This document shows positions 25,525 through 40,019 of a DNA stretch of 64,000 nucleotides, piece by piece (position 1 is the first letter of the stretch; the number at the start of each line of letters is the position of its first letter). A model generated the notes under the pieces. The model did not search any database. It was not told where the DNA came from and worked only from the letters and a program-made list of their open reading frames with translations. The translations under genes and the position numbers were made by a program. This DNA comes from Acidobacteriota bacterium (lineage in GTDB: Bacteria > Acidobacteriota > Thermoanaerobaculia > Multivoradales > Multivoraceae), in the NCBI GenBank assembly GCA_029263415.1, contig JAJCXN010000023.1:1-64000 (forward strand), read 5' to 3'.

Positions 25525-27072
25525 CTAGTTCCAGCTCTGAGTATCTCCAGACTCAAATCCATCAGCGAAGATCGGCACTTGCCCGTAGAACACGTACACA
25601 GCGCCGGTATCGACCCGGATGCTGGTGTCCTCAAACGGCGTCCCCACCACGAGATCATCCGCACCATCACCATTGAAGTCGCCGGTCGCCAATTCTTCTC
25701 CAAACCGGTCGAAGTCTTCAGCTGGAGCCAAGGCAAGAGACTGAGTCCAGAACCTGGTGTTAAAAACTGCCAATCCCTGTGGACTCGACCTGAAAACAAG
25801 GACCGCACCTTCATCCTGGGTCGCTGCGCTGCCCCCCTCGGGAAGGTCCTCCAAGGGGCCACCCATGGCGAAGTCATCGTTGCCGTCGCCGTCAAAATCA
25901 CCGGCAACCACGGCCGAGCCATAGCCATCACCGATTTCGGATTGCGCTTGTAACGAAGCATCCTGCGTCCAGATTTCAGCTTCTAAGTTGTCGAGGCCGG
26001 TCGGCTGCCCAAGGTAGATGCTCGCCCCTCCGCCACTCGCACTCCCGGCCGCAAACCCTGGATGCCCCACTATCAGTTCGTCCAAACCATCGCCGTCAAG
26101 ATCGCCGGAGGCAAGGTCGGCGCCAAAATCGGTCCCGATCAAAGTCGTGACGAACCGGTCAATACCCATCAAGGAAAGACCCACGATCCCGGAGCTGTAG
26201 AAGACGAAGACGACGGGCGATGCTCCTTTAGACCCCATCGCAAGATCGTCACCATAAAGTCCGTCGAAGTCCCCTGCTACAAGCGACGATCCCAGTTCCA
26301 CCGTGGGTGCACCGAATGGCGTGTCCGAATAGTTCAGTTGCATGGCGCCGGCGCTGCTAAGACCCGAGTTCAGCACTCCATAGATGACCGAAACGGCTCC
26401 CTCCTCGCTGGTGGTCTCGGACTCACCCGGAGCCCCCACTGCGAGATCGGAGATTCCGTCGCCATTGAAGTCTCCCGTAGCCAGCGACTCGCCGAATCGG
26501 TCATCGCTCTCGCCATCCTCCATACCAACGTCCTCTTGCGACCAAATCCTGTGCTGAACTACGTCGAGCCCTGAAGAATCTCCATGAATGACAAGGACAA
26601 AGCCATCATCGACTTCGCCCGACAGGCGGTCCTTTCCAGGCACACCGATGGCCAGATCGTCATTGCCGTCTAGGTCAAAGTCGCCTGCACCGAGCGCGGC
26701 ACCAAACCGATCACCCGCACTATTCAAGAATCCGAGGCCAAACGACTCTTGATCCAGAAAAAGCGACGATGCCGCATCAAGCCCAGAAGCGGAGCCATAC
26801 AACACGTGCACTTCGCCCGCAGCTTGCGACCCGGCGCCCATAGCACCCACCGCAACATCTTCGAACCCATCGCCGTTGAAATCGCCGACTGCGAGAGCCT
26901 CGCCGAACACGGCGTTGTGCTCGTTCGATTCGCCAGGGAGATCCCCCATAAAGATCGCGTCAGCGCCCGCGGCGGTGAGTTGCGCATTCGCCATGGGTAC
27001 AGTGCCGAGTAGGACCAGCAACGTGAAAAGAACGGAGCGGTTGCAAGCTGAAGTCTTGGGGCGGGTCGTCAT
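25525..27072 (-). CDS. Secreted FG-GAP beta-propeller protein with DGFESGDT tail
   Basis: A 515-residue exported protein. A signal peptide occupies residues 1-30 (VLFTLLVLLGTVPMANAQ). The rest consists of seven FG-GAP/integrin-alpha-like repeats, each with a calcium-binding loop of the DxDxDGxxD kind: VGDFNGDGFEDVAVG, AGDFDLDGNDDLAIG, TGDFNGDGISDLAVG, AGDFDGLYGDDLAMG, SGDLDGDGLDELIVG, AGDFDGDGNDDFAMG, TGDFNGDGADDLVVG. The extreme C-terminus is PIFADGFESGDTQSWN, a short tail shared with two other secreted proteins in this window. It is likely a cell-surface or secreted calcium-dependent propeller. Ligand unknown. The gene is monocistronic. Confidence 0.9.
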   Translation of the reverse strand: MTTRPKTSACNRSVLFTLLVLLGTVPMANAQLTAAGADAIFMGDLPGESNEHNAVFGEALAVGDFNGDGFEDVAVGAMGAGSQAAGEVHVLYGSASGLDAASSLFLDQESFGLGFLNSAGDRFGAALGAGDFDLDGNDDLAIGVPGKDRLSGEVDDGFVLVIHGDSSGLDVVQHRIWSQEDVGMEDGESDDRFGESLATGDFNGDGISDLAVGAPGESETTSEEGAVSVIYGVLNSGLSSAGAMQLNYSDTPFGAPTVELGSSLVAGDFDGLYGDDLAMGSKGASPVVFVFYSSGIVGLSLMGIDRFVTTLIGTDFGADLASGDLDGDGLDELIVGHPGFAAGSASGGGASIYLGQPTGLDNLEAEIWTQDASLQAQSEIGDGYGSAVVAGDFDGDGNDDFAMGGPLEDLPEGGSAATQDEGAVLVFRSSPQGLAVFNTRFWTQSLALAPAEDFDRFGEELATGDFNGDGADDLVVGTPFEDTSIRVDTGAVYVFYGQVPIFADGFESGDTQSWN

Positions 27073-27548
27073 GAACGGAATCCTCTCTAGTTGTGAGCTT
27101 TGAACCAGCGGTTCAACAAGAGGAACGGAAAGACTCCCCCGGCAACCTCAAGACTGAGGACTTTTCAACGAGCGAAAATCGAAGCGAAGTCCGAACGGCA
27201 GAACAACGCGTAGCGGCAACCAGGACTACGTCTGCCCTGCGACTCCCATGAGAGGGGCCACTGCCCTTGAAGGGGGCTCAACCAGGAGCAACCTTGGGCA
27301 TCTTCGGCACCTAGACGAACTGAACGAATAGTTGCCGTTAGTGACCCACAAAACCTACGAAGGACCGAGCCCAGCACGGGGAATAGCCTTCCGTCCTCTC
27401 GCGGTCCGAGTGCTTAGCGGAGCGGTCGACCAGTAGGAGCGAGAGGTGTCATAGGCTTGTGCTGGTGTTCCTGTGGATTCGCGACACCAAGCAGCGCACA
27501 ATAGACACTTCGGCATTGATCGCAACGCACCTACCTAGAGAGAATCGC
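27073..27548. other. Divergent intergenic region between FG-GAP and mscS genes
   Basis: About 475 bases without a supportable gene. It must hold the promoters of both divergent genes. Short dyads such as GAACCAGCGGTTC (27111-27123) are visible but too small to call. A minus-strand frame at 27165-27377 shows no coding character. Confidence 0.4.
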
Positions 27549-29207
27549 ATGTTCCCCCGTTTCTTCCGACGCACGCCTTTCAACCCAACGTCACGCGACG
27601 CGCGCATCACCCTGCTAACCGCAATCGCGGCATGCATCGCACTCCACGCAGCACCGACCGGCGCTCAAAATGCAACCGAACCATCGACCGCATCGACCGC
27701 CGCCGTCACAGCTCCCGCCGAGCTGGCTTCGCCCCGCGCCACCATGCGCACCTTCCTCGAGTCTCTCGCGGAAGGGGACCTCGACACGGCGGCCTCTACC
27801 CTTGACCTGACCTCGACCGGCCTGAGCGAACGCTTGCGCCGACTACGTGGTCCGGAGTTGGCAGTACGGCTGAAGAATGCCGTCGACCGCGTGAGGCTGG
27901 TCGATTACAACGACATCCCCGACACCACCGAAGGCGAACCGTATGTCTTCTGGAGCGGGCGCACAGGGGTGATCGAGATCGCTCAAGGAGACGAGGGTGC
28001 TTGGCGCTTCTCCCCACGCACGATCGAAAAGCTCAACGAGTCTCTCGATGAACTCGCCGATCACGACATGGTGGAAGGTGTGGTTGAGGCTCCGCAGACG
28101 CGGTCGGAGTGGCTCCGTGCGCGGATGCCCGAGGCGCTGCTCGGCCCGGGCTTCATCCTCGAACACTGGCAGTGGATGGTCCTGGGGGCGTTGGTGGTAC
28201 TTGGTGTCGGGATCGACCTCGTGGCTCGCTGGCTTCTGTTCGCAGTCGTCTCTCGACGCCTCCGCCGCTCGATATCGGTCGACACTGCGCGAATCAACCG
28301 TGCCCTGCGCCCTTTCGGCCTCCTTGCCATGGCGATGCTCTGGTGGTTTGCGCTGGGTTGGCTAGGCCTCCCGGATCGCCCACTCGCGGTGCTCGGCACG
28401 GCGGTCGAGATCGTCGCGGTGGCGGGAGCAATCTGGGGCCTCTACCGGCTGATCGACCTCGTCGTGGCCTTCCTCGAAGCCCGAGCAGAAGCCAGTCCCT
28501 CCAAACTGGACGACATGCTCGTGCCACTGTTCGAGCGCTCCGCCAAGATCTTCGTTTTGGTCTTCGGCCTGATCTTCCTTGCCGATAGCCTGCGCGTTCC
28601 GATCACCTCGCTGCTGGCGGGAGTCGGTATCGGCGGCATTGCACTCGCCCTTGCCGCGCAGGACCTCGTCAAGAATCTGTTCGGATCGCTCACCGTGCTG
28701 CTCGATCGACCGTTCGAGATTGACGACTACATCGCGGTCTCCGGCGTCGAAGGCACGGTTGAAGAAGTCGCCTTCCGCTCGACGCGCATTCGCACGCCGG
28801 CCGACACCGTGGTCACCTTGCCCAACGCTAACCTGATTTCTGCCTCGGTGGAGAACTTCGGTCGCCGTCGGTTCCGCCGCTGGCGCAGCCACATCGGCCT
28901 CGCCTATGACACCCCAACTCTTGTCATCTCGACGTTCTGCGAGCGGTTGCGCACAATCATCCTTGAGCGAGAAGACACCCGCAAAGAGGGCTTCTTCGCT
29001 GAGCTCAACAACCTTGGCGCAAGCTCCCTAGAGGTGCTGTTTCAGGTCTACTTCGAAGTCCCGGGCCAAGCCGACGAACTCCGTGGGCGCCACCAACTCG
29101 CGGTGGCGATTCTCGATCTGGCGGAGGAGTTAGGCATCGAGATCGCGTTCCCCACCCAGACGATTCATGTGCAGACGAAGGACGGTTCATCAGCCGCTGG
29201 AGAATAA
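27549..29207 (+). CDS. MscS-family mechanosensitive ion channel
   Basis: A 552-residue membrane protein starting at ATG 27549 (purine-rich AGAGAG upstream, followed by a signal peptide ending near APTGAQ). A periplasmic N-terminal domain (about 40-195) precedes transmembrane helices near 200-225, 255-275, 280-300 and 330-350. The pore-lining TM3 and start of the beta domain read 'VGIGGIALALAAQDLVKNLF' and 'LLDRPFEIDDYIAVSGVEGT', then TVVTLPNANL, all MscS hallmarks. It opens under membrane tension to release solutes in osmotic downshock. Its N-terminal extension makes it a medium-size MscS paralogue. Confidence 0.93.
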   Translation: MFPRFFRRTPFNPTSRDARITLLTAIAACIALHAAPTGAQNATEPSTASTAAVTAPAELASPRATMRTFLESLAEGDLDTAASTLDLTSTGLSERLRRLRGPELAVRLKNAVDRVRLVDYNDIPDTTEGEPYVFWSGRTGVIEIAQGDEGAWRFSPRTIEKLNESLDELADHDMVEGVVEAPQTRSEWLRARMPEALLGPGFILEHWQWMVLGALVVLGVGIDLVARWLLFAVVSRRLRRSISVDTARINRALRPFGLLAMAMLWWFALGWLGLPDRPLAVLGTAVEIVAVAGAIWGLYRLIDLVVAFLEARAEASPSKLDDMLVPLFERSAKIFVLVFGLIFLADSLRVPITSLLAGVGIGGIALALAAQDLVKNLFGSLTVLLDRPFEIDDYIAVSGVEGTVEEVAFRSTRIRTPADTVVTLPNANLISASVENFGRRRFRRWRSHIGLAYDTPTLVISTFCERLRTIILEREDTRKEGFFAELNNLGASSLEVLFQVYFEVPGQADELRGRHQLAVAILDLAEELGIEIAFPTQTIHVQTKDGSSAAGE

Positions 29208-29629
29208 AGATCTCAAAGGCATGTCTTGGATGACTCGGATGACTCCTTTTGAGGAGCCTGACAGCGTGGGAGTTTGGTTGCAGTAGAAACCTGACCTTTT
29301 CAGAGTCTTCGAGCACGAGGCCTGGAGACAAGAGTGCCGGTGACTTCGGAGAGTAGCGGGTCAATGCGCGTCGCTTTCAGACCTGCTTAGGGCGCGCTGA
29401 ATCGTGGGTGGCGCGTGGTTGTGATCCCGGCGTGCTGCTCTGCCTTTGGGCCTAGGCAGCGGCACGTGTAGCGCAGTGCGGAAGTTCTCCTTGCACCACG
29501 TCTCGAGAGATTCTTGGACCCTTTGCTTCGAGAAGCACTGCTCGCGCTAGCGAAGCGCCTTTTTTGCACTACGATGTCTGGCACCGTACCTTCACACCAC
29601 CCAACGTAGTACCAACCAGGACCTGAGCC
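29208..29629. other. Gap between mscS and VOC gene
   Basis: No gene was found. The interval contains two short hairpins near its right end, GCTTC-GA-GAAGC (29525-29536) and the terminator-like hairpin at 29544-29565, about 340 bases beyond the mscS stop. The remainder shows no recognisable signal. Confidence 0.4.
29544..29565 (+). terminator. Putative intrinsic terminator
   Basis: GCGCT and AGCGC form a five-base stem around a five-base loop, directly followed by C and six T residues. It is oriented to end plus-strand transcription before the VOC gene. The stem is short, so strength is uncertain. Confidence 0.5.
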
Positions 29630-30412
29630 ATGAGCCACCTCCTTACTCCGCGCGTCGGCGGAATCCTCAGCGCCGACATTGCCGTTCCCGAGCACGAACA
29701 TGAGGTGCGTTTCTACTCACGCATACTCACCACCGGCGAGAACCCACTTTGGCGCGAGGACCTGATGAACAACTTGGGCATGCCGATCATTGGCTTGGGC
29801 GCCCGCACCGAGGATCTTGCCGACCTTCCGCTCCAATGGATGCCGCACATTCAGGTCGCTGACGTCGCAGCCTGTGCGAAGCGTGCGCTCGACTTGGGCG
29901 GGAGCGAGCTTATGCACGGCAAAGACGACGATGGCAATAGTCAATGGGCGGTGCTACTTGATCCGAATGGAGCCGCATTCGGGATCATCCCCGTGGTTCC
30001 TGCTGAGGCTGTTGCCTCAGCTGAAGCCGCGGCCGATCGTATGGGTGTCATCTCTGGGGTCGACCTCACAGTCTCCGCCGCCTCGGCCACCCGTGACTTC
30101 TATGAGCAGGTCGTCGGTTGGTCGGTGCAGGACGCCGAGATGGAGGATGGGAGCGAGCGTTACGCTGACTACACAATGCTCGGCGGTGACGGAGTCCCAG
30201 CGGCGAGAATCCGCCATGCCCGCGGCGCAAATCTCGGTCTGCCGCCGACGTGGATGATCTGCCTCCCGGTTGCCGACCTCGCCGAAAGTGTCCGGCGAGT
30301 GGAACAGGAAGGAGGAAAGATCATCAAAGCGACACGGAGGAAAGACGGGGAGTATGCCCGTGTGGTGATTCAGGATCTGGTGGGGGTGAGCCTGGTGTTG
30401 GTTACGGGATAG
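29630..30412 (+). CDS. Two-domain VOC (glyoxalase/bleomycin-resistance fold) protein
   Basis: A 260-residue protein with two vicinal-oxygen-chelate modules, about 8-125 and 137-260. Module 1 starts GGILSADIAVPEHEHEVRFY and ends with 'LLDPNGAAFGIIPVV'. Module 2 starts VDLTVSAASATRDFYEQVVG and ends VIQDLVGVSLVLVTG. The ends are beta strands typical of VOC proteins annotated as glyoxalase-like or hydroxylase-associated. Candidate metal ligands vary between the modules, so enzymatic activity is not certain. It is a stand-alone gene in the cytoplasm. Confidence 0.88.
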   Translation: MSHLLTPRVGGILSADIAVPEHEHEVRFYSRILTTGENPLWREDLMNNLGMPIIGLGARTEDLADLPLQWMPHIQVADVAACAKRALDLGGSELMHGKDDDGNSQWAVLLDPNGAAFGIIPVVPAEAVASAEAAADRMGVISGVDLTVSAASATRDFYEQVVGWSVQDAEMEDGSERYADYTMLGGDGVPAARIRHARGANLGLPPTWMICLPVADLAESVRRVEQEGGKIIKATRRKDGEYARVVIQDLVGVSLVLVTG

Positions 30413-30485
30413 GAGGAAAGGGCAGAGCGGCCCAGCACCCAATAGCGGGAGTTGGAATAGAAGTCGACGCCTCTTCCGGCCGTAA

Positions 30486-31067
30486 CTACTCAGGTTTAGG
30501 TGCTACAACTTGGAGGCGGTCCAGAACCGCGGCCAGCCTAGACTCCAGCGATCCGCCAATGAGGCTGTATGGGATGCCGCGCACCGTGAGGTCGTTGCGT
30601 AACGCTGCGTCCATCGCAATTCGCATGTCGGGATGCGCTCGATTGCCGTCATCCTCGAACTCGATGTCGGGCAGGCAGACGAATGTGTGGTGATAGCGGC
30701 CTGCACACTCGTTCGCGTAGCTCTGCACCTCTGTGGTGGTCGCGCCGAAGAAGAAAAACGCGTAGAACTGAGTTGTGATCGCGTTGGTGTCGACGAACAG
30801 AAACCGGTTGGCGCCCTGGATCAGCCGATCTTCGAGCGCAACGTGCTCACGGCAGATCGTCTCGTACTCACCAAGCGGTAGGTCGCGGTCCGCCTCGATC
30901 CAAAGTCGTTTCCCGACCTCTTCGACCCACGGCTCTCCGGACTGTTCGGCAAGGGCTTGACACAAAGTGGTCTTGCCGCTCGATTCTGCGCCCAAGAAGA
31001 CGACGCGCTGGACGGCCGGCTTCTCTGGTGGTGCGAGCACCGTGGCTCTTGTGTCAATGCTCTGCAT
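30486..31067 (-). CDS. NadR-like P-loop kinase (AAA_28 family)
   Basis: A 193-residue ATPase. The Walker A GAESSGKTT (26-34) follows RVVFL, and 'NRFLFVDTNAITTQFYAFFF' carries the Walker B-like strand. This arrangement is that of the ribosylnicotinamide kinase domain of NadR and its AAA_28 relatives, which phosphorylate nicotinamide riboside on the NAD salvage route. The NadR adenylyltransferase domain is absent, so this is a stand-alone kinase domain. It could instead be a related nucleoside or phosphoinositide-type P-loop protein. No operon partner is visible. Confidence 0.78.
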   Translation of the reverse strand: MQSIDTRATVLAPPEKPAVQRVVFLGAESSGKTTLCQALAEQSGEPWVEEVGKRLWIEADRDLPLGEYETICREHVALEDRLIQGANRFLFVDTNAITTQFYAFFFFGATTTEVQSYANECAGRYHHTFVCLPDIEFEDDGNRAHPDMRIAMDAALRNDLTVRGIPYSLIGGSLESRLAAVLDRLQVVAPKPE

Positions 31068-31425
31068 GAGTCTTGTCGCCAGTTGGGGAGTAATAGGGAA
31101 TGCAGGCGACCAGCAGGGTCACGAATATGTCGGCGTCGCTGTCTCTTGAACCATCACTATTTCTGCTGCATTCGGTTCCGCCAGCTCGACCGGGGCGCGA
31201 GTTAGTGTCACCGCGATGCGCCAACATGCCATGTGCGATCTTGACTCGCCCGGCCGGCTCCTAGGCTCGCAAGACCGCCCACCCTATCGGCATTTGAGCT
31301 CTCGAAACGCGGGCTCTCAGAGGGCCTCGAAAGATCATCGCTCTTGCAGGCCACGCGCTTTCTGCTCGTCGGGATTCCATCACGCTGAGTGTATCGCTGT
31401 TGCGCTAGACAGTGGTTCAGGTTGA

Positions 31426-31500
31426 GTCGCCCTAAGGGCACAAGCGAGCGCGTCCTGCACCACTTGCGAAGCCTTCGGTATCGGTCAGGACCCCTGCTCT
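31426..31500. repeat. Intergenic element, copy B (related to 19216-19290)
   Basis: It begins gtcgccctaagggcacaagc and shares a 16-base exact core and about 70 bases of degenerate similarity with copy A, 12 kb away. Both are in the same orientation and both in non-coding sequence following gene-poor stretches. Confidence 0.5.
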
Positions 31501-31562
31501 CAAACGATACCGGGCAAATATTTTGGGCGGGTCTTTGATCAAGACGGGGCGCCCCCGGTGTC

Positions 31563-31587
31563 CTTCGGGTCGGGATTCGACCCGAAG
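31563..31587. other. Strong hairpin with ten-base perfect stem
   Basis: CTTCGGGTCG and CGACCCGAAG pair perfectly around a five-base loop (GGATT). No T-run follows on either strand, so it is not a typical intrinsic terminator. It may be part of a structured RNA or a protein-binding dyad. Confidence 0.6.
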
Positions 31588-32300
31588 CCTAAGCTGCGGA
31601 CCAAGGGGTTATAGCTAAGCTCTTCGCGCATCCGGGTCGGCTATGTCAATGGCAGGCTACAGGCACAGGCCGACTTCGACCTGCGTCGTGCAACAGCCAA
31701 CCGGAGCATAAGAAGTGAAAGTTGCATCGGAAGAGCCGCTGCCACCGGTAGCTTCGCTTTAGCCGCGCCTTAGAGGCTCTAGCCTGGAGGTTCTCCTTCG
31801 CGGCAGTCCGGGTGGGCGCCCTAGCTCCGGCTTCGCACCTCCAAGGGCCTACCCAACCACAGCATCCTGCGAGCGTGTTGCCTGCCGTGATGCGCGGCTT
31901 TGTTACGCACAGTTTGCTACTCCCCTCACGTCAGAAGAGACTTCGACCACCACACAGCGGCCCGACGTTAGCTACCGATTTCGATCGCCTGGAGGAATGA
32001 AGCCGCCGCCTCACTCGGCACAGCATCGAATCGAGCGCTAGAACCGCCTTCTCGCCTGGTTCGTGCTACTCACTACGTCAGGAGTAAAGAACGCAGCGAG
32101 CGGACCAAACGTGCACGCTTCTCCCTCCTCGATGAGCACAGAGCAAGAGACCGACGCGGTAAGAGCCGCCACATCGCCCTCGGCCAGCTGCTCTTCGCTC
32201 TGAGATTTCTGTTGACCTGATGATGGGTGCAGTTCTCCGAAATCCGTCTCTCTGGTTGAGCGCCCATGTTGGCGATCGTCAACCAAGGAGTCCAACGAGC

Positions 32301-35054
32301 ATGCACCACTGCCCGACATCACAATCCGCCAGGCCGATGCCGAGTCAACCGGCGGAATGCGCCGCCGCAAGCGGGCACACCCAGACTTCAACCATCCTTC
32401 AGAGTCCTAGCCGGTTCACTCTGCAGCGCCTGGGTCTGCCGACTACCTTGGTGTTGTGGCTGCTGTGCCTGCCTTCCGAAGCCGGTCCCCCCAAGGACCT
32501 CAACGTGCGTGTGATCGATTTCAACGCCGAGGGCGTAGGCGTCACCTTTGCCAACTCAGGTGGCGTCTACTGGGCTGGCCAGTACTTCTTTAGCGGCGAG
32601 CTAGACGATGGCAGCGAACTGCACATTTCCGACGGAGTTGCCACCTTGCAACTCAAGGACCTCAGGCCAGGGCCCGAAGACAGTGCGCCACTCGAATTCA
32701 CCCGCGTCGGTGCGATCAATGACCTGGCTAGTCGCGTCTTCTTCACCGCGGACCTCGGGGTCTCCGGGCGCGAACTGTGGGTGACGGACGCTACCGAGGA
32801 CGGCACGCAGGTGGTGTTTGATTACCTGCCGCACCTCAGTAGTTTGCCCGAGTCTCTCACCGCGTGGAACGGTGATCTGTACCTCAGTGCGGATGTCACT
32901 GGCGGTGAGTTCACTCTGCACAAAGTAGACCCCGGTACGCTCGCCGTCACCACGCTGGGCCTCGCCAACGTTCTTCTGCCACCCGAGGTCGAGCTTGAGT
33001 CAAGCGGAGGGCTGCTCTACTTCGCGGGCAATCCGCTGACACCGCAGATCTGGTCTACTGACAGCGGCGAGCCGACGGTCGAGACCGATGTCGCGTGCGA
33101 TGCAATCGGTGATCTGTTGGGCGTCTCAGGCGAACTGTTCTTCGTTTGCGAAAACGGAATCGGCACCTACCTCATGCGTCTCGATGGTGGCGTTGCAGCG
33201 GGCGCGGTCGAGGTTCACGCCGAACCAGCTGGCACAGAAATCGCCCAACTGACTGCGAGCGGTGGCTACCTTTACTTCGTACGCGACCAAGAAGATCTGC
33301 TCGCCTACGACAACACCAGCGGCGTTGTGAGCACGGCCCAAGACTACGCAGCGTTCGCAGCACCGTTGTCGCTGAGGGCCTTCAACGGTAGCCTTATCTA
33401 TTCCGTTCACACCTCAGCTGAGGGTCGCGAAGCCTGGCTGGTGACCGGCACCGCCGCTCCTGTATTGCTCGACAGCCGACCCGGAACTGGCAGCGGTGTG
33501 ACCTCCTCCACGTTCTTCGTAGAGCGCGATGATGTCGCCTACTTTGGTTTGGTCGGCGCTGAACTCTGGCGCACAGAAGGTACCGCGGCGACAACATCCC
33601 TGGTGATCGATCTACAGGAATCGGGCAGTTCCGGTGGAATTTCGAGTCTTCACAACACACCGTTAGGCCTGTTCTTCAGTGGCGGCTCTCAGGAAGTGGA
33701 TCTCTGGCTCAGCGACGGCACCGAACTGGGCACCGTGACGCTTTCCGATCCGGTGTCCTTCTCGTCAGACCCTGAAGGTCTGTTGTACGACCCGTATGGT
33801 GAGCGCGTCTTCTTTCACGGTGAGAACCCACAGGGCAGGGAACCTGCCGTTTCTGACGGCACACAAGACGGGACTCACGTTGTGGTGGACGGCGTGCCCG
33901 GGCCGGACTACGTCCTGCCTCGTTTCGAAGCCGCCCTTCCAGACCCCAGCCGCGGCACGTCATCTTCAGTGGCTATCTACCGCCGCGCTGAGGTCGGTGT
34001 CGGCACCCAACTCTGGAAGACCGATGGCACCGAGATGGGCACTGAGCAGATCAGCTTGCTGAGTACCAACCCCAGCGCCGGTTTTGTTCGCGGCGGAGTA
34101 CTGAACAACCAGTTCCTGTTTAGGGTCGATGACGAAGTCCATGGGCAAGAGCTGTGGACTACAGACGGCACTTCAGCCGGAACGCAACTCCTGATCGACC
34201 TCAATCCGACGGGTGACGGCGCCTCCTCCCATTTCACAGTGGTCGGCAGCCATCTTTATTACACCGGCAACGATGGTTTGAGCGGGATTGAACTGTGGCG
34301 TACCGACGGCACAGCCGTCGGTACCGAGCTGGTCAAGGACATCGAGCTCGGCCCCAATGGTTCGAGCCTTGGAAGCTTCGTTGGCAGCTCCAGCCACCTG
34401 TATTTCTTCGACTCTTCAAAGGAGACCTTCTGGGTCTCGGATGGGACCGCTGCCGGCACCGTCTCCCTTGGTTCGTTGTACGACGACGCCGCTTCTTATG
34501 CCGTGGACGGCGACAATGTCTTCCTGGTGGGATACGACGAGACCTTCGAAAACCAGCTTTGGTACGCGACGCCAACCAGCTTGCAGCGACTGACTGACTT
34601 CATCGACGACAGCAAGGAGCCACAACTGCTCGGAACGGTCGGCACACGAGCAGTCTTCTGGGCCCACGACGGCACCCAAGACGGCCTAGAGCGCCTGTGG
34701 GCGATGACATCTACCGGCTCACCAACGCTCCTGGGCACCTTCAATTCAAGGAGCGATGATTCCGACGATGCGGCAGTCAGCTGGCAGGGATGGCTGTACT
34801 TTCAAGCGGAAACCGCTGCTCAGGGCAACGACCTGTGGCGCACCGACGGAATCATCATCGAACCAGTTGACCTGGCGCCCGGACCAGCGTCGTCGTCGCC
34901 CGAGCTCATGACCACCGCTGGTGATCGGCTATTTCTCTCGGCATGGGATGCCACCGCAAAACACGAACTCTTTGTGCTCTGGCCTTCATTGCCGATCTTC
35001 GACGACGGCTTTGAAAGCGGCGACACCCTTGAGTGGTCGACTACGCTTCCATAG
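32301..35054 (+). CDS. Secreted ELWxxDGT-repeat propeller protein with DGFESGDT tail
   Basis: A large exported protein (917 residues from ATG 32301, chosen for AAGGAG ten bases upstream; an ATG at 32220 is also in frame). A hydrophobic signal (LPTTLVLWLLCLPSEAG) lies about 45 residues in. The body has recurrent ELWxxDGTxxGT motifs, the clearest being ELWVTDATEDGTQ, ELWRTEGTAATT, LWLSDGTELGT, QLWKTDGTEMGT, ELWTTDGTSAGT, ELWRTDGTAVGT and FWVSDGTAAGT, roughly 45-50 residues apart in the C-terminal half. They suggest a multi-bladed beta-propeller. The C-terminus is PIFDDGFESGDTLEWSTTLP, the tail shared with two neighbours. Probably extracellular or surface-bound. Function unknown. Confidence 0.88.
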   Translation: MHHCPTSQSARPMPSQPAECAAASGHTQTSTILQSPSRFTLQRLGLPTTLVLWLLCLPSEAGPPKDLNVRVIDFNAEGVGVTFANSGGVYWAGQYFFSGELDDGSELHISDGVATLQLKDLRPGPEDSAPLEFTRVGAINDLASRVFFTADLGVSGRELWVTDATEDGTQVVFDYLPHLSSLPESLTAWNGDLYLSADVTGGEFTLHKVDPGTLAVTTLGLANVLLPPEVELESSGGLLYFAGNPLTPQIWSTDSGEPTVETDVACDAIGDLLGVSGELFFVCENGIGTYLMRLDGGVAAGAVEVHAEPAGTEIAQLTASGGYLYFVRDQEDLLAYDNTSGVVSTAQDYAAFAAPLSLRAFNGSLIYSVHTSAEGREAWLVTGTAAPVLLDSRPGTGSGVTSSTFFVERDDVAYFGLVGAELWRTEGTAATTSLVIDLQESGSSGGISSLHNTPLGLFFSGGSQEVDLWLSDGTELGTVTLSDPVSFSSDPEGLLYDPYGERVFFHGENPQGREPAVSDGTQDGTHVVVDGVPGPDYVLPRFEAALPDPSRGTSSSVAIYRRAEVGVGTQLWKTDGTEMGTEQISLLSTNPSAGFVRGGVLNNQFLFRVDDEVHGQELWTTDGTSAGTQLLIDLNPTGDGASSHFTVVGSHLYYTGNDGLSGIELWRTDGTAVGTELVKDIELGPNGSSLGSFVGSSSHLYFFDSSKETFWVSDGTAAGTVSLGSLYDDAASYAVDGDNVFLVGYDETFENQLWYATPTSLQRLTDFIDDSKEPQLLGTVGTRAVFWAHDGTQDGLERLWAMTSTGSPTLLGTFNSRSDDSDDAAVSWQGWLYFQAETAAQGNDLWRTDGIIIEPVDLAPGPASSSPELMTTAGDRLFLSAWDATAKHELFVLWPSLPIFDDGFESGDTLEWSTTLP

Positions 35055-35229
35055 GTGAAGAAGCGATTGCACGACTCACTTGGACCCTACAGTCTCGAGG
35101 CGATCTCAAAGCGCGCCTGAGCGCTCGTCCGTAGAGTCTCCTCTGGGATCGCTGAAAGCGATGTAGACGATCGAGCTGCTCAATAGCCCCGCAGGTGACG
35201 CTGCACCTGAGGTGCTGGCGCAGGCGGCG

Positions 35230-36441
35230 CTATTCGCCAACAACCGGTGACGGCGGCCGCAGGCCGCCGCTGTTGGCGTGGAGACTCATAGTGTCGCGGA
35301 GCTTGCGAACCACGATTCCCGTTGACGTGTTGCGACTGAGGTGAAGATTGGAGAGATCCACCTGGTCGAGTTGAGTTCCCGCCGCCGATTCATGGACCTC
35401 GCCGTTCCATTCCCACAGTTCATCGATGAGGCGATTACCCAGCGTGTCGAGATCGTTGCTCGGATGCGAATCGATGCGCGAGTAGGCACCGACCCTGCCA
35501 GTGCGTCCGTCAAAGATCGCGATCTGTGCGGTCACTTCAGCCTCAGAGTCTGCTCTTAGGGAACCCGCCACGATCATGCTCACCGTGAGCATGTCTGCTA
35601 TGTCTCGCAGAGTAGCTGCATTCACATCTCCGCTTTGCAAACGATGGCGCGCGCGCTCGACGACTTGGAACGGAACCAGTTGCTCAGTGCCACTACCCGT
35701 CAACGCTCGAGAGACCAGCGGTACCAGTTGGGCCGCTACCTCCGCGCTCTGTGCGTCGCTCGTGCTGAAGCCCAGAACAACCGCGATGGGTCGCTGTGAA
35801 GGACCAGTGTTTGGCCCTGCTCCAAGCACGTTTCGGCCATCGTCTTGGGCACCGGTGGAGGTCTCGGTAGCGATGGAGTCTTGAACCACGCCCCCGGACC
35901 CCAACTTAAGGAGAACGTAGAGCGTGATGAATACGAAGCCCAGGATCGCCGCAGCAACCCAGACCTTCTTAGGGGCAGATCGAGGCTTCAGTTGAGCCGG
36001 TGGAAGCCGGTTGCGCTGACTCTCGACCGGACTCCCGGTGGCCGGGGAGCCGGGCGATTCATCGCTCAGTGCCGGTGCGGTTGAACTGGAAGTTCCTTCG
36101 GGCGTGGCGTCGGTCGCGGTCGCTTGTACCAGGTTGACGTCAGGTAGAAAACGGTAGCCACGGCGGGGCACAGTTTGCACAAAGACAGGGTCCGTCGGAG
36201 GGTCATCCAAAGCCTTGCGCACTTCGCTGATGGTTTGCTTAAGGGCGCTGGCAGATAGGTGTTCGACACCCCAAGCCTGGTCAATCAGTTCATCGTGACT
36301 GAGCACGCGTTGTGGGTTCGAAACGAGCGCAAGCAGCAGTCTGAACGCCTGCGGTCGCAAGATGAGTTCACCCCGTGGTCCAGAGAGCATGCCCTGTGGG
36401 TCAAGGATGTAGTCGCCAAACTGGTATCGAGTCGCGGGCAC
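35230..36441 (-). CDS. ToxR/CadC-like membrane-anchored transcriptional regulator
   Basis: A 403-residue protein starting at GTG 36441, preceded by GGAGAG six bases upstream. The N-terminal OmpR-type winged helix (about 5-100: 'FGDYILDPQGMLSGPRGELI', 'RVLSHDELIDQAWG', TVPRRGYRFLPDV) binds DNA. A Pro/Ser-rich linker leads to one transmembrane helix (160-181, VWVAAAILGFVFITLYVLLK) and a periplasmic domain. That domain resembles the TolB-like/FlgO-type module that follows such anchors in CadC family members ('RPIAVVLGFSTSDAQSAEVA', DIADMLTVSMIVAGSL). It would sense a periplasmic signal. Targets are unknown; the DUF2541-like gene upstream is on the same strand. Confidence 0.87.
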   Translation of the reverse strand: MPATRYQFGDYILDPQGMLSGPRGELILRPQAFRLLLALVSNPQRVLSHDELIDQAWGVEHLSASALKQTISEVRKALDDPPTDPVFVQTVPRRGYRFLPDVNLVQATATDATPEGTSSSTAPALSDESPGSPATGSPVESQRNRLPPAQLKPRSAPKKVWVAAAILGFVFITLYVLLKLGSGGVVQDSIATETSTGAQDDGRNVLGAGPNTGPSQRPIAVVLGFSTSDAQSAEVAAQLVPLVSRALTGSGTEQLVPFQVVERARHRLQSGDVNAATLRDIADMLTVSMIVAGSLRADSEAEVTAQIAIFDGRTGRVGAYSRIDSHPSNDLDTLGNRLIDELWEWNGEVHESAAGTQLDQVDLSNLHLSRNTSTGIVVRKLRDTMSLHANSGGLRPPSPVVGE

Positions 36442-36617
36442 AAGTCTCTCCAGCAGGCGAAGGACCGCTGGTGGCCATGGAAGAGGTAACTGAGTTGATC
36501 GAGGGCGTGGCCTACGATAACAGTTGTTGCAATGCGAGATCCTTCTCGAGGATCTCTGCAGTAGACGATTCCTGGCCCGACGAGACATTAGCTTCTAGCT
36601 GCGTAGGGGTACTGAGA

Positions 36618-37067
36618 CTAGTGCTTTGCAAAAACGCTAACAACAGCGAACTTCTTGCCTTTGGGCGGCGTCCGGTACGAGAGGCTGATGCTGGCGATGC
36701 GCCGTTGTCCACCATTCAAGTCGATCACACGAGTCTTGCCACCTGCAGCAATCCGATGGCGCAGTGTCACGTTCTGGACCGTGCCGTCGGCGAACGTAAC
36801 TTTGACACTCCGGAAGACAACCGCAGCGCGGGCCACTCGCAGCTGGATCTTTGAGGCCAAAACGGTCGGATTGACGCGGATCACGTCGGTGTCTCCGCGC
36901 GGGTGAACTGTGGCCGCTCCCAAGGAGACCCATTCATCGGCTTCAGCGGCTGCATGAGCGACTGATGGGCTGCAAGCGCAGGACAGTAAGACTGAAAGCA
37001 GCGTGAATACGGCGGTTGCGGATCGCATGCGGTACGTGGTTTGTTTCCAATCGGAAGATACCTTCAT
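36618..37067 (-). CDS. Secreted DUF2541-like protein
   Basis: A 149-residue exported protein starting at ATG 37067, chosen because AAAGGAG precedes it by eight bases. The signal peptide extends to about residue 40 (MRSATAVFTLLSVLLSCACS, then VAHAAA). The mature domain is a compact beta sandwich: 'WVSLGAATVHPRGDTDVIRV', VTFADGTVQNVTL, 'RVIDLNGGQRRIASISLSYR' and a KKFAVVSVFAKH end. This pattern is found in small periplasmic proteins annotated DUF2541. Function unknown. A Cys at the signal end (SCACS) could be lipidated. Confidence 0.7.
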   Translation of the reverse strand: MKVSSDWKQTTYRMRSATAVFTLLSVLLSCACSPSVAHAAAEADEWVSLGAATVHPRGDTDVIRVNPTVLASKIQLRVARAAVVFRSVKVTFADGTVQNVTLRHRIAAGGKTRVIDLNGGQRRIASISLSYRTPPKGKKFAVVSVFAKH

Positions 37068-37418
37068 TGCCTGATTCTCCTTTGACGATGATTGCTCTGC
37101 ATTGCCGCAATTCGCTGTTGACGGTTGCCATCCCAGAGGAGGCGGTCGGGCCATGTGCTCCGGTCAGGCTTGGTTTGCTTGCTGCCAGTGGCACCATGCC
37201 GCGCCGAGAGTTCGAAGTGGGCGGCAGATGGTCTAGAAACGGTCCAAGGTTCAGAAGACCTGCCGGGCCTCGAGCTCGGATGCCTTAGACCGAGCTTGGA
37301 CCGTTCGATGACGACAGCGCCGCCATGTCGACCCGATGATGTCGGACGAAGAGAGCGACCCGGATAGCCCGAGGCCCCCGGAGCTGCTCGTCGTCTAACG
37401 CAGCAACGGAGGCAAGGT

Positions 37419-38540
37419 ATGAACTCGCAAGAATGTAGGTATGGAGATGGCCTTGGAAAGAAACTGAGGGCGGTTGGTAGACAACCTGCTACGGCGACCC
37501 CGCGGGCACGCTGTCGGACCGGCCCAGTGGCAACAATGACGGCGCTGATGGTCACGCTCTGTTTCCTTACCAGCGCAGTCCACGCACAGATCTTCTTCGA
37601 CCAGCCGCCAGCGCCCGGCGCGAACTTCGGTCAGTTCTTGGGCGGACCCTACGTTAGAGAGTTCGCGGTGGTCATTCCTTCGCCCGTTGGAGGGTCCCCC
37701 GGTCCGAGACCTGTCCTGATTGCACTGCATGGCACCAGTGGCAACATTGCCGACTACATCGACAACGAGTTCTCCACTCTGACCGAATACGCGATCGAAG
37801 AAGGCTGGTTTGTCGTTGTGCCGCAGGCCTTGCCTGAGGACCCGATCAATGGCGGGAAGATTCGCTGGAACACCGTCTACTCCGAATCTGTCGCTCCTGA
37901 TCCGACCGCGCCGGATGATCTCGCCTTCATCTGGACCCTCCTCGAGGATCTGAGCGCGCCACTGCCATTCGACGCGAACCATGTCTACGTCACTGGTTTC
38001 TCGGGCGGCGCAACCATGGCCCAACTGTTGGCCGCGACCCAACCCGGAAGGGTGGCTGCGTTAGCGGCTTCTGGTGGCAGCCGGGCGACCCTCAGCCAGA
38101 GTCCCGACCCCACGACAGGAGAGATCGCGGAGATGTTGATCGAGTTACCAGCGGGCGAAGGGCCGGTTCCAGCACTGCTGATTCACGGCTCCAAAGAGGA
38201 AGAAGGCGACAACAAGAGACCGTACGCTGGAGGGCTCAGCAGTGGTGGCACTCCTCCTGCCAAGACGTTCGTTTCCCCGGTCTGGGATCAGGTTGCGTTC
38301 TGGATCGAGGCGAACGGGTGTAGCCAGACGGCCCGGGTGGAACTCGGCCCCGACTATGCGGACACAGCGGCTCCGCTGTGGGACATAGAACGGTGGCGGG
38401 TTGAGCGGTATCGGAACTGTTCGGGGCGAACGGAAGTGGTCTTTGTAACAGCTCTTGGGCTCGGGCACAGTTGGCCCAAGCACTCGAAATGGGGGTTTGA
38501 TGGAGACCGACTGATCATTGACTTTCTCAAGAGGTTCTAG
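37419..38540 (+). CDS. Secreted esterase of the PHB-depolymerase/feruloyl esterase type
   Basis: A 373-residue exported alpha/beta hydrolase. ATG 37419 is favoured by GGAGG six bases upstream, giving a long n-region before the signal core MTALMVTLCFLTSAVHA (residues 40-56). The oxyanion region LIALHGTSGN, the nucleophile elbow GFSGGATM (GxSxG), the acid residue in LLIHGSKEEEGDNK and a late GLGHSWPKH histidine are in the expected order for LpqC/PHB-depolymerase-like esterases. It ends four bases before the next gene, so the two may be co-transcribed. Substrate not predictable. Confidence 0.88.
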   Translation: MNSQECRYGDGLGKKLRAVGRQPATATPRARCRTGPVATMTALMVTLCFLTSAVHAQIFFDQPPAPGANFGQFLGGPYVREFAVVIPSPVGGSPGPRPVLIALHGTSGNIADYIDNEFSTLTEYAIEEGWFVVVPQALPEDPINGGKIRWNTVYSESVAPDPTAPDDLAFIWTLLEDLSAPLPFDANHVYVTGFSGGATMAQLLAATQPGRVAALAASGGSRATLSQSPDPTTGEIAEMLIELPAGEGPVPALLIHGSKEEEGDNKRPYAGGLSSGGTPPAKTFVSPVWDQVAFWIEANGCSQTARVELGPDYADTAAPLWDIERWRVERYRNCSGRTEVVFVTALGLGHSWPKHSKWGFDGDRLIIDFLKRF

Positions 38541-38543
38541 CTC

Positions 38544-40019
38544 ATGTCCCAAACAAAGTCTGGCCCCCGGTCTTGCGTAGGCAGCTCGTGCCTCTTCATC
38601 GTCGGGCTGCTCACCGCGGTTACTCCTAGTTTCTCTGCTGAGATCACGGTTGACTCTCTGGGTGATGACCGACTTGTCGACGGCAACTGCGAACTAGCAG
38701 AAGCGATCGATGCGGCTACCACAAACAGTGCTGTGGATGGATGTGTAGCAGGCGAACTAGAGGGAACCGATGTCGTGCGCGTCGCAGTGAGTGGAATCGT
38801 TGCCTTGAAGGCGAAGATCTTGTCTCAGTCGAGCGTGCAGATTGTGGGCCTCGGGCGCGAGGGCACCATCATCGACTGCCGCAACGTCGATGAGAGCTGC
38901 ATTACCACGACGTTTGAGACAACTTCGCTGGAGAGACTGACCGTGCTCGCTGAAGATGCACCGCCCTTGGAGGTGCTGCCGTTCACCTCGGCGATGCTCA
39001 CGAACGTCGATCTTCAGGGGGGATTGGCCATTCACGTTTGGCCCCAGGGGAACCTGGCATTGGACCGCTCACTGGTCGCTGGTTTCGACACCAACGCCGA
39101 GGCAGGTTCGATAACCACCACAGGTGGAGCCCTGTTCAACGAGGGTGATCTTGTCTTGCGCGACTCGAGTTTCGTCGGCAATCGAGCTCGGTCCGTCGGT
39201 GACAACCGGGCGGACTCTCTTTGTTGTCGACTGGGTGGTGGTGTGAGAGAGGCGTTCGGCGGAGCTATCTATAGCTCTGGCGGGTCCGTGGTGATCGAAC
39301 GTGCGACGTTCTCGGGAAACTCAGCCGAAGCGGCCATCGCCTACGGCGGGGCCCTGGCGTTCTCGAACACCGTTGTCACTATCGAGCATTCGACCCTGGC
39401 AGGGAACTGGGTCGACTCGAGCGGCACTGATTCGCGCTCGGGTGCTGAGCCAACGTTTGGTGGCGGTATCTACCTAGGAGCTGCGAGTAGCCTTGTGATC
39501 CAGAACTCGATTGTCGGCGGCAATACAGCGTTTCGCCCAACCAGCATGCAGGTGGCCAGTGAACTGTATGTTGACCCTGCGGCGGCAGTCGGCTCCGCCG
39601 GTCACAACTTCGTGCGCGACAATCGAGATAGCAGCGGTGCGTTTCCAGCGGGTCAGCCGAATGGGCTTGGAGACTACGTTGGGCAACAACCAGCGCCCCT
39701 GCCGCTCGACCTGGAACCTCTTGGAGAATACGGCGGCGACCTACCAACCTTCCTGCCGACATTGGTGGTTTCGAGTTTGATCATCGATCGCGGTTCATGC
39801 TCTTTGGAAGCAGTCGACCAGCGCGGATTCGGCAGTTCCCAGACGGAACTGCGCGCGACCAACTCGGTTGCTCACCCCGACGATCATGACGGTTGCGATA
39901 TTGGGGCAGTCGAGGCGCTGGCCATCGACCGCACAGCCATCTTCTCGGATGGCTTCGAGTCGGGAAACACTGCCGCGTGGTCGCTTTCAACTGAAGCGTT
40001 GTGGCGAGGGATGAAGTAG
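38544..40019 (+). CDS. Secreted CSLREA-type beta-helix protein with DGFESGNT tail
   Basis: A 491-residue exported protein. A signal peptide ends near residue 33 (FIVGLLTAVTPSFSAE). The N-terminus 'ITVDSLGDDRLVDGNCELAE' is a CSLREA-like entry motif (normally NGxCTLREA). A right-handed parallel beta-helix follows, with repeated 'GGALFNEGDLVLRDSSFVGN', 'GGAIYSSGGSVVIERATFSG' and 'GGGIYLGAASSLVIQNSIVG' rungs. The C-terminus has RTAIFSDGFESGNTAAWS followed by a few residues, the same tail as the FG-GAP and ELWxxDGT proteins. Such proteins are polymorphic outer-membrane or adhesin-like. It sits just behind the esterase. Confidence 0.88.
   Translation: MSQTKSGPRSCVGSSCLFIVGLLTAVTPSFSAEITVDSLGDDRLVDGNCELAEAIDAATTNSAVDGCVAGELEGTDVVRVAVSGIVALKAKILSQSSVQIVGLGREGTIIDCRNVDESCITTTFETTSLERLTVLAEDAPPLEVLPFTSAMLTNVDLQGGLAIHVWPQGNLALDRSLVAGFDTNAEAGSITTTGGALFNEGDLVLRDSSFVGNRARSVGDNRADSLCCRLGGGVREAFGGAIYSSGGSVVIERATFSGNSAEAAIAYGGALAFSNTVVTIEHSTLAGNWVDSSGTDSRSGAEPTFGGGIYLGAASSLVIQNSIVGGNTAFRPTSMQVASELYVDPAAAVGSAGHNFVRDNRDSSGAFPAGQPNGLGDYVGQQPAPLPLDLEPLGEYGGDLPTFLPTLVVSSLIIDRGSCSLEAVDQRGFGSSQTELRATNSVAHPDDHDGCDIGAVEALAIDRTAIFSDGFESGNTAAWSLSTEALWRGMK

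Follow-up and report, generated by a model that had tools for sequence, protein, structure and literature searches.

Several kinds of bacterial systems recruit or sort many secreted proteins by means of a shared C-terminal element. The PEP-CTERM, GlyGly-CTERM, and MYXO-CTERM tags are short C-terminal motifs found on dozens of unrelated signal-peptide proteins per genome, where a hydrophobic transmembrane segment is followed by basic residues and the partner is an intramembrane protease (tag architecture from PMC11980579 and PMC6219818). In cellulosomes, a C-terminal dockerin, a ∼70-residue calcium-binding domain, docks secreted proteins onto cohesin modules. In chaperone-usher pili, a strand donated by one subunit completes the incomplete beta-sandwich of a related subunit to build a fibre, and in type IX secretion a whole Ig-like C-terminal domain of ∼70–100 residues acts as the signal on many surface proteins. 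In the engineered SpyTag/SpyCatcher pair, a bacterial surface-protein domain has been split into a short peptide and a catcher that are joined by a covalent Lys-Asp bond (PMC6539128). Here, we compare with these systems a ∼16-residue tail found at the C terminus of three proteins encoded in a 64,000-nucleotide window (contig C23, positions 1–64000) of a 6.9-Mb genome (G000) of the class Thermoanaerobaculia, Acidobacteriota.

A C-terminal tail shared by unrelated secreted proteins

A sequence-only reading of the window had proposed that three secreted proteins of unrelated fold end in one common motif. This observation is correct, and the phenomenon proved to be far larger than was reported. 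The relevant features of the window are as follows.

25525..27072 (-): signal peptide plus FG-GAP beta-propeller, 515 aa (FG-GAP E 3.2e-56)
25528..25575 (-): C-terminal tail PIFADGFESGDTQSWN of the FG-GAP protein, the last 16 codons before the stop
32220..35054 (+): ELWxxDGT repeat protein, 944 aa as called (TIGR04534 E 2.1e-88)
34992..35051 (+): C-terminal tail PIFDDGFESGDTLEWSTTLP of the ELWxxDGT protein
38544..40019 (+): signal peptide plus beta-helix plus choice-of-anchor Q domain, 491 aa (NF041518, residues 389–458, directly before the tail)
39936..40016 (+): C-terminal tail AIFSDGFESGNTAAW, followed by 12 further residues

The third protein, which ends in AIFSDGFESGNTAAWSLSTEALWRGMK, therefore has a longer extension than the other two. 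The annotated ATG of the ELWxxDGT protein gives a long N terminus before a plausible signal peptide, so its true start is probably further downstream, before a hydrophobic segment.

To test whether the motif is more than a chance similarity, the genome was searched with a degenerate DNA pattern for DGFE[S/T]G. This pattern occurs 81 times, compared with 1 occurrence of the reversed pattern. Of the 81 places, 73 lie 5–20 codons before a stop. Among these 73, residues that the search did not impose are nearly fixed, with W at +10 in 73/73, F at -2 in 72/73, and I/L/V at -3 in 72/73, and most chains end 0–5 residues after the W. The genome has about 75 secreted proteins that end in [IL]Fx-DGFESG-DTxxW-(0-5 residues)-stop. 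Synonymous codons differ freely between copies, so the constraint is on the peptide, not the DNA. The motif was also found away from C termini. Rhs-repeat proteins at C51:394641-407157 of G000 and at locus L132 carry it within the repeat region (EIFSDGFESGDMNAWSCAGNC... and ALIFADGFESGDTSAWDSTTQ..., respectively), and a protein with two similar halves (G000 C55:45923-50939) has the tail after its first half, followed by a Pro-rich linker and a second half without a tail, as if two clients had fused.

The proteins that bear the tail (clients) are enriched in signal peptides. A crude heuristic that chose the start codon called 66 of 82, and an equal-footing, likewise crude heuristic called 48/64 tail proteins compared with 51/165 other ORFs of the same loci (p = 2.5e-9). 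Seventy of the clients hit 47 NCBIfam and 50 Pfam families, none shared by more than six, including subtilases, M14, M36-related, and M43 peptidases, FG-GAP, DUF5122, sortilin-like, and lactonase propellers, beta-helices, and a beta-lactamase fold. The sequence-only claim that the tail has no hydrophobic helix or basic end also holds, as 3 of 73 have a membrane-like segment in the last 30 residues, 3 of 73 have two or more basic residues in the last 8, and the mean net charge is -2.8.

To determine how widely the tail occurs, named genomes were scanned at the DNA level. The tail was found almost only in Acidobacteriota, mainly in the class Thermoanaerobaculia, and 124 of 132 motif places in those loci lie close to a stop. 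Hits labelled as other phyla (e.g. loci L097, L109, and L202) and L132 carry the motif internally and were not counted as tails. Within the class, 65 of 149 genomes match F-x-DGFE-x-G-4x-W, with 1 to 177 hits each, against 2 control hits in all, and relatives of G000 carry up to about 150 tail proteins. A mis-spaced version of the pattern, which serves as a further negative control, gave 3 hits in 71 genomes. Genus g3, which belongs to the same family as G000, has none in 21 genomes; families f10, f11, f12, f14, and f17 of the class have essentially none; and family f13 is split between tail-rich and tail-less genera. Elsewhere in the phylum, only scattered single or double hits were found.

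Relation of the tail to a larger domain and to a separate secreted protein

The source of the tail was suggested by the choice_anch_B proteins, which occur in both tail-rich and tail-poor genomes. Orthologues of this family share the junction SDINRGLFVLRPRL, which is followed by the tail and a stop (genomes G000, G024, G022, and G039), by nothing (G028 and G017), by Cys-rich repeats, or by a ∼195-residue domain that begins with the tail motif (G025, LFSDGFESGGLDSWSRTRG..., G018, and G027). This domain has no Pfam match. It is common as a fused C-terminal domain in tail-poor genera of family f4 and as tandem copies in long proteins elsewhere; proteins of up to about 2,400 residues in genomes G036, G037, and G006 hold tandem copies of the strand-plus-domain unit, with a looser version of the strand motif. 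A profile of 13 fused domains plus the one unsplit stand-alone domain matches about 60 independent tails, essentially all at positions ∼2–20. Based on these results, the tail is homologous to the N-terminal strand (IFxDGFESGDxSxWS) of this unnamed domain. Concanavalin-like folds such as GH16 start with a D-x-F-[EN]-G...W strand that may be comparable.

The same search returned short proteins that match the domain only from about position 25 onward. In these proteins, which we call catchers, a signal peptide is followed directly by ∼190 aa of the domain that start with the second strand, as in G000 (contig C19:2062-2721, +, outside the window), where the sequence is VKNRNVVLGACLLLLVTGGMASAQ-NMVDVNGSAAKDGSFGMETISDG...YYDSFESFRTLAP. 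Every stand-alone catcher whose N terminus was read (about 40 genomes) lacks the FExG....W motif, with the exception of that of G018, a tail-poor genome in which the unsplit form SP-QQIFADGFESGDTSAWSKARKPRGLDV... retains the strand between signal peptide and domain. A rough tree does not make the split catchers one clade, so splitting may have happened more than once or the tree may be wrong.

To test whether catcher and tail occur together, genomes of the class were searched with profiles built from 6 and then 21 catchers, which find one full-length copy in most tail-rich genomes. With tail-rich defined as 15 or more copies, a split catcher is present in 38 of 43 searched genomes, or 39 of 44 when the later-searched G067 is included. 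The five genomes without a detected catcher even at E<=10 (G465, G010, G030, G029, and G458) are MAGs of 70–94% completeness, and summing incompleteness over the 44 genomes gives about 3.5 expected misses. Among tail-poor genomes, 6 of 105 have a split catcher (Fisher p = 1.7e-23, uncorrected for phylogeny and therefore inflated, as related genomes are not independent data points). The contrast is repeated inside families f1 (3/3 versus 0/21) and f13 (9/11 versus 1/9, p = 0.005), and the catcher is absent from all 21 genomes of the tail-less genus g3 and from nearly every other tail-less lineage. When the tail-poor genomes with a catcher (G254, G209, G001, G068, G069, and G070) were searched again with a looser pattern, each proved to have at least one C-terminal tail, including the previously missed variant ...ILIDSFESGDTSLWSNVVE at the end of a G254 protein.

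We also asked what the catcher might resemble. Weak Pfam hits of catchers to Polysacc_lyase (3/21, best E 0.004) and CBM_11 fit a carbohydrate-type jelly roll. No catcher was found in viral contigs or PDB sequences. Single-chain AF2 models, which were restricted to poor alignments, were too low in confidence to use (pLDDT 43.7 for the catcher and 32.3 for a client), and Foldseek gave nothing significant, so the fold, and the place of the strand in it, rest on sequence.

Gene neighbourhood and a proposed split-domain model

Analysis of the catcher loci showed that 23 of 40 contain PF00884 (sulfatase-fold) genes, often two to five, together with GT2 glycosyltransferases, acyltransferases, MBOAT- and GDSL-type enzymes, and methyltransferases (the sulfatase-fold proteins, one acyltransferase, and one GDSL protein were identified against Pfam and the others by eye). 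There are 52 PF00884 genes in 527 kb of catcher loci, compared with 1 in 1,245 kb around tail genes, a background drawn largely from one genome plus about 30 others. These proteins, which form clusters at catcher loci such as L323 and L374 and some of which have a lipobox-like N terminus, have T-x-P where sulfatases have C/S-x-P-x-R, so they may not be sulfatases at all and are possibly phosphotransferases or phosphodiesterases. A client gene lies next to or near the catcher gene in G069 (about 40 nt apart), G038, G039, G068, G070, and at locus L188.

Based on these results, we propose that the tail is a detached beta-strand tag. In this model, the first strand of the domain, probably a concanavalin-like jelly roll, has been moved to the C terminus of dozens to over a hundred unrelated secreted proteins in tail-rich genomes of these soil and sediment bacteria, and the remainder is made as a small secreted catcher, usually once per genome. 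Clients and catcher would each be exported by Sec, and outside the cytoplasm, probably at the cell surface, the tail would fill the open edge of the catcher and complete its beta-sandwich, so that one receptor holds many clients like a socket that accepts many plugs. No lysine is conserved among tails or among the invariant or near-invariant catcher positions, so a SpyTag-like covalent link is unlikely. The catcher is probably attached to, or part of, a surface glycan layer, as judged by its gene context and its weak family matches. The analysis itself establishes the tail family, its homology to the first strand, the lack of that strand in the split catchers, the co-occurrence of the two parts, and the gene neighbourhood, whereas binding in trans, its non-covalent nature, the location, the glycan tether, and docking as the function are inferred from sequence alone. 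Some genomes keep many fused copies of the domain, so a shared ancestral motif could partly explain tail conservation. We put the probability of this model at roughly 0.62; the fuller view, in which part of a bacterial class displays a large share of its secretome on a surface glycan layer through the missing strand of one receptor, is more tentative.

The sequence-only interpretation of the motif as a modular sorting, anchoring, or processing signal is therefore partly supported. The tail is a modular C-terminal tag that is enriched on secreted proteins and at C termini and patchily distributed, but no dedicated protease or transporter was found in searches that covered secretins and the neighbours of tail genes. 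The possibility raised in advance that the motif is merely the last strand of a known domain nearly applies, except that the tail is the first strand of an unnamed domain whose remaining strands are encoded elsewhere. The likely partner is therefore a docking receptor rather than a sortase-like enzyme, with anchoring, export, and chaperoning each a possible outcome on present evidence.

An alternative, which we consider unlikely, is that the tail is read directly by an unidentified secretion machine or protease and that the catcher is an accessory or an unrelated offshoot of the parent domain. The strict C-terminal position, the signal peptides, and the patchy distribution fit such a sorting tag, and the motif is more uniform across clients than in fused domains. 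However, no candidate machine that was examined tracks the tail. GspD hits occur in all 148 genomes of the class searched, and the strong ones proved to be PilQ in a PilMNOPQ operon, and a loss of T2SS in genus g3 is not supported. The only secretin over the GspD curated cut-off among the 148 genomes is at G022:C64:3313-5004 (E 1.7e-133). In most genomes of the class that were read, the PilMNOPQ operon (G000 C46:158000-177999) is followed by conserved lipoproteins with IPT/PKD-like repeats, and the presence of SecDF only near tail-positive PilQ loci looked like a window-edge effect on housekeeping genes. Neighbours of tail genes are ordinary kinases, sigma factors, and ABC-type permeases, with no shared machine. 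This alternative also does not explain why a secreted protein lacking exactly this strand co-occurs with the tail.

It is also possible, although again unlikely, that the catcher is a periplasmic chaperone or pilot that covers the free strand during export, as pilus chaperones do, without anchoring clients at the surface. A small signal-peptide protein, usually one per genome, with a proposed open edge that many clients could use is consistent with this role, but its gene sits among surface-glycan rather than export genes, and its weak family matches are to carbohydrate-type domains. Least likely is that the tail is a non-functional remnant of a lost C-terminal domain or a spreading piece of DNA. 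The occurrence of either the full domain or the tail at one junction could be read in this way. Remnants would decay, however, whereas W and F are kept in 73 and 72 of 73 copies with varied synonymous codons and fixed length, the clients belong to dozens of unrelated families, the same tail occurs in dozens of genera, and there is a matching catcher.

Comparison with described systems

No model for the tail, the fused domain, or the catcher was found in Pfam or NCBIfam, a full-text search for DGFESG found no paper, and literature searches found no prior description of such a system. If the model is right, this is a C-terminal sorting principle that needs no membrane helix or protease and that explains where a large part of the Thermoanaerobaculia secretome goes. 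It would also allow dozens to over a hundred hypothetical proteins per genome to be annotated as clients and provide a natural peptide-tag pair.

Like PEP-CTERM, GlyGly-CTERM, and MYXO-CTERM, the tail is one short motif on dozens of unrelated signal-peptide proteins per genome, sits after choice-of-anchor domains, and is patchily distributed, but it lacks the hydrophobic helix and basic end, and its partner appears to be a secreted partial domain rather than an intramembrane protease. No curated tag model was listed for the three window proteins, for 20 further tail proteins scanned singly, or among the top 25 of 47 families for 70 tail proteins, and partial hits to rhombosortase- and myxosortase-dependent M36 models come from the domain before the tail. 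The invariant cysteine of MYXO-CTERM is also missing, as Cys is present in the tail of 3 of 73. The proposed one-to-many docking of C-terminally tagged proteins resembles that of cohesin and dockerin, but the tail has no calcium-binding repeats, the tag is one strand, and the receptor is the rest of the same domain. The type IX signal is likewise a C-terminal, beta-structured element on many surface proteins, but the tail is ∼16 residues and directly follows unrelated domains.

The proposed system would work like strand complementation, in that the tag is homologous to one strand of a complete domain and the split catchers lack exactly that strand. It differs from donor-strand complementation in pili in that about 75 unrelated proteins share one strand and no usher is implied. 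As in SpyTag/SpyCatcher, a domain is divided into a short tag and a catcher, but here the division is natural and the predicted association is probably non-covalent.
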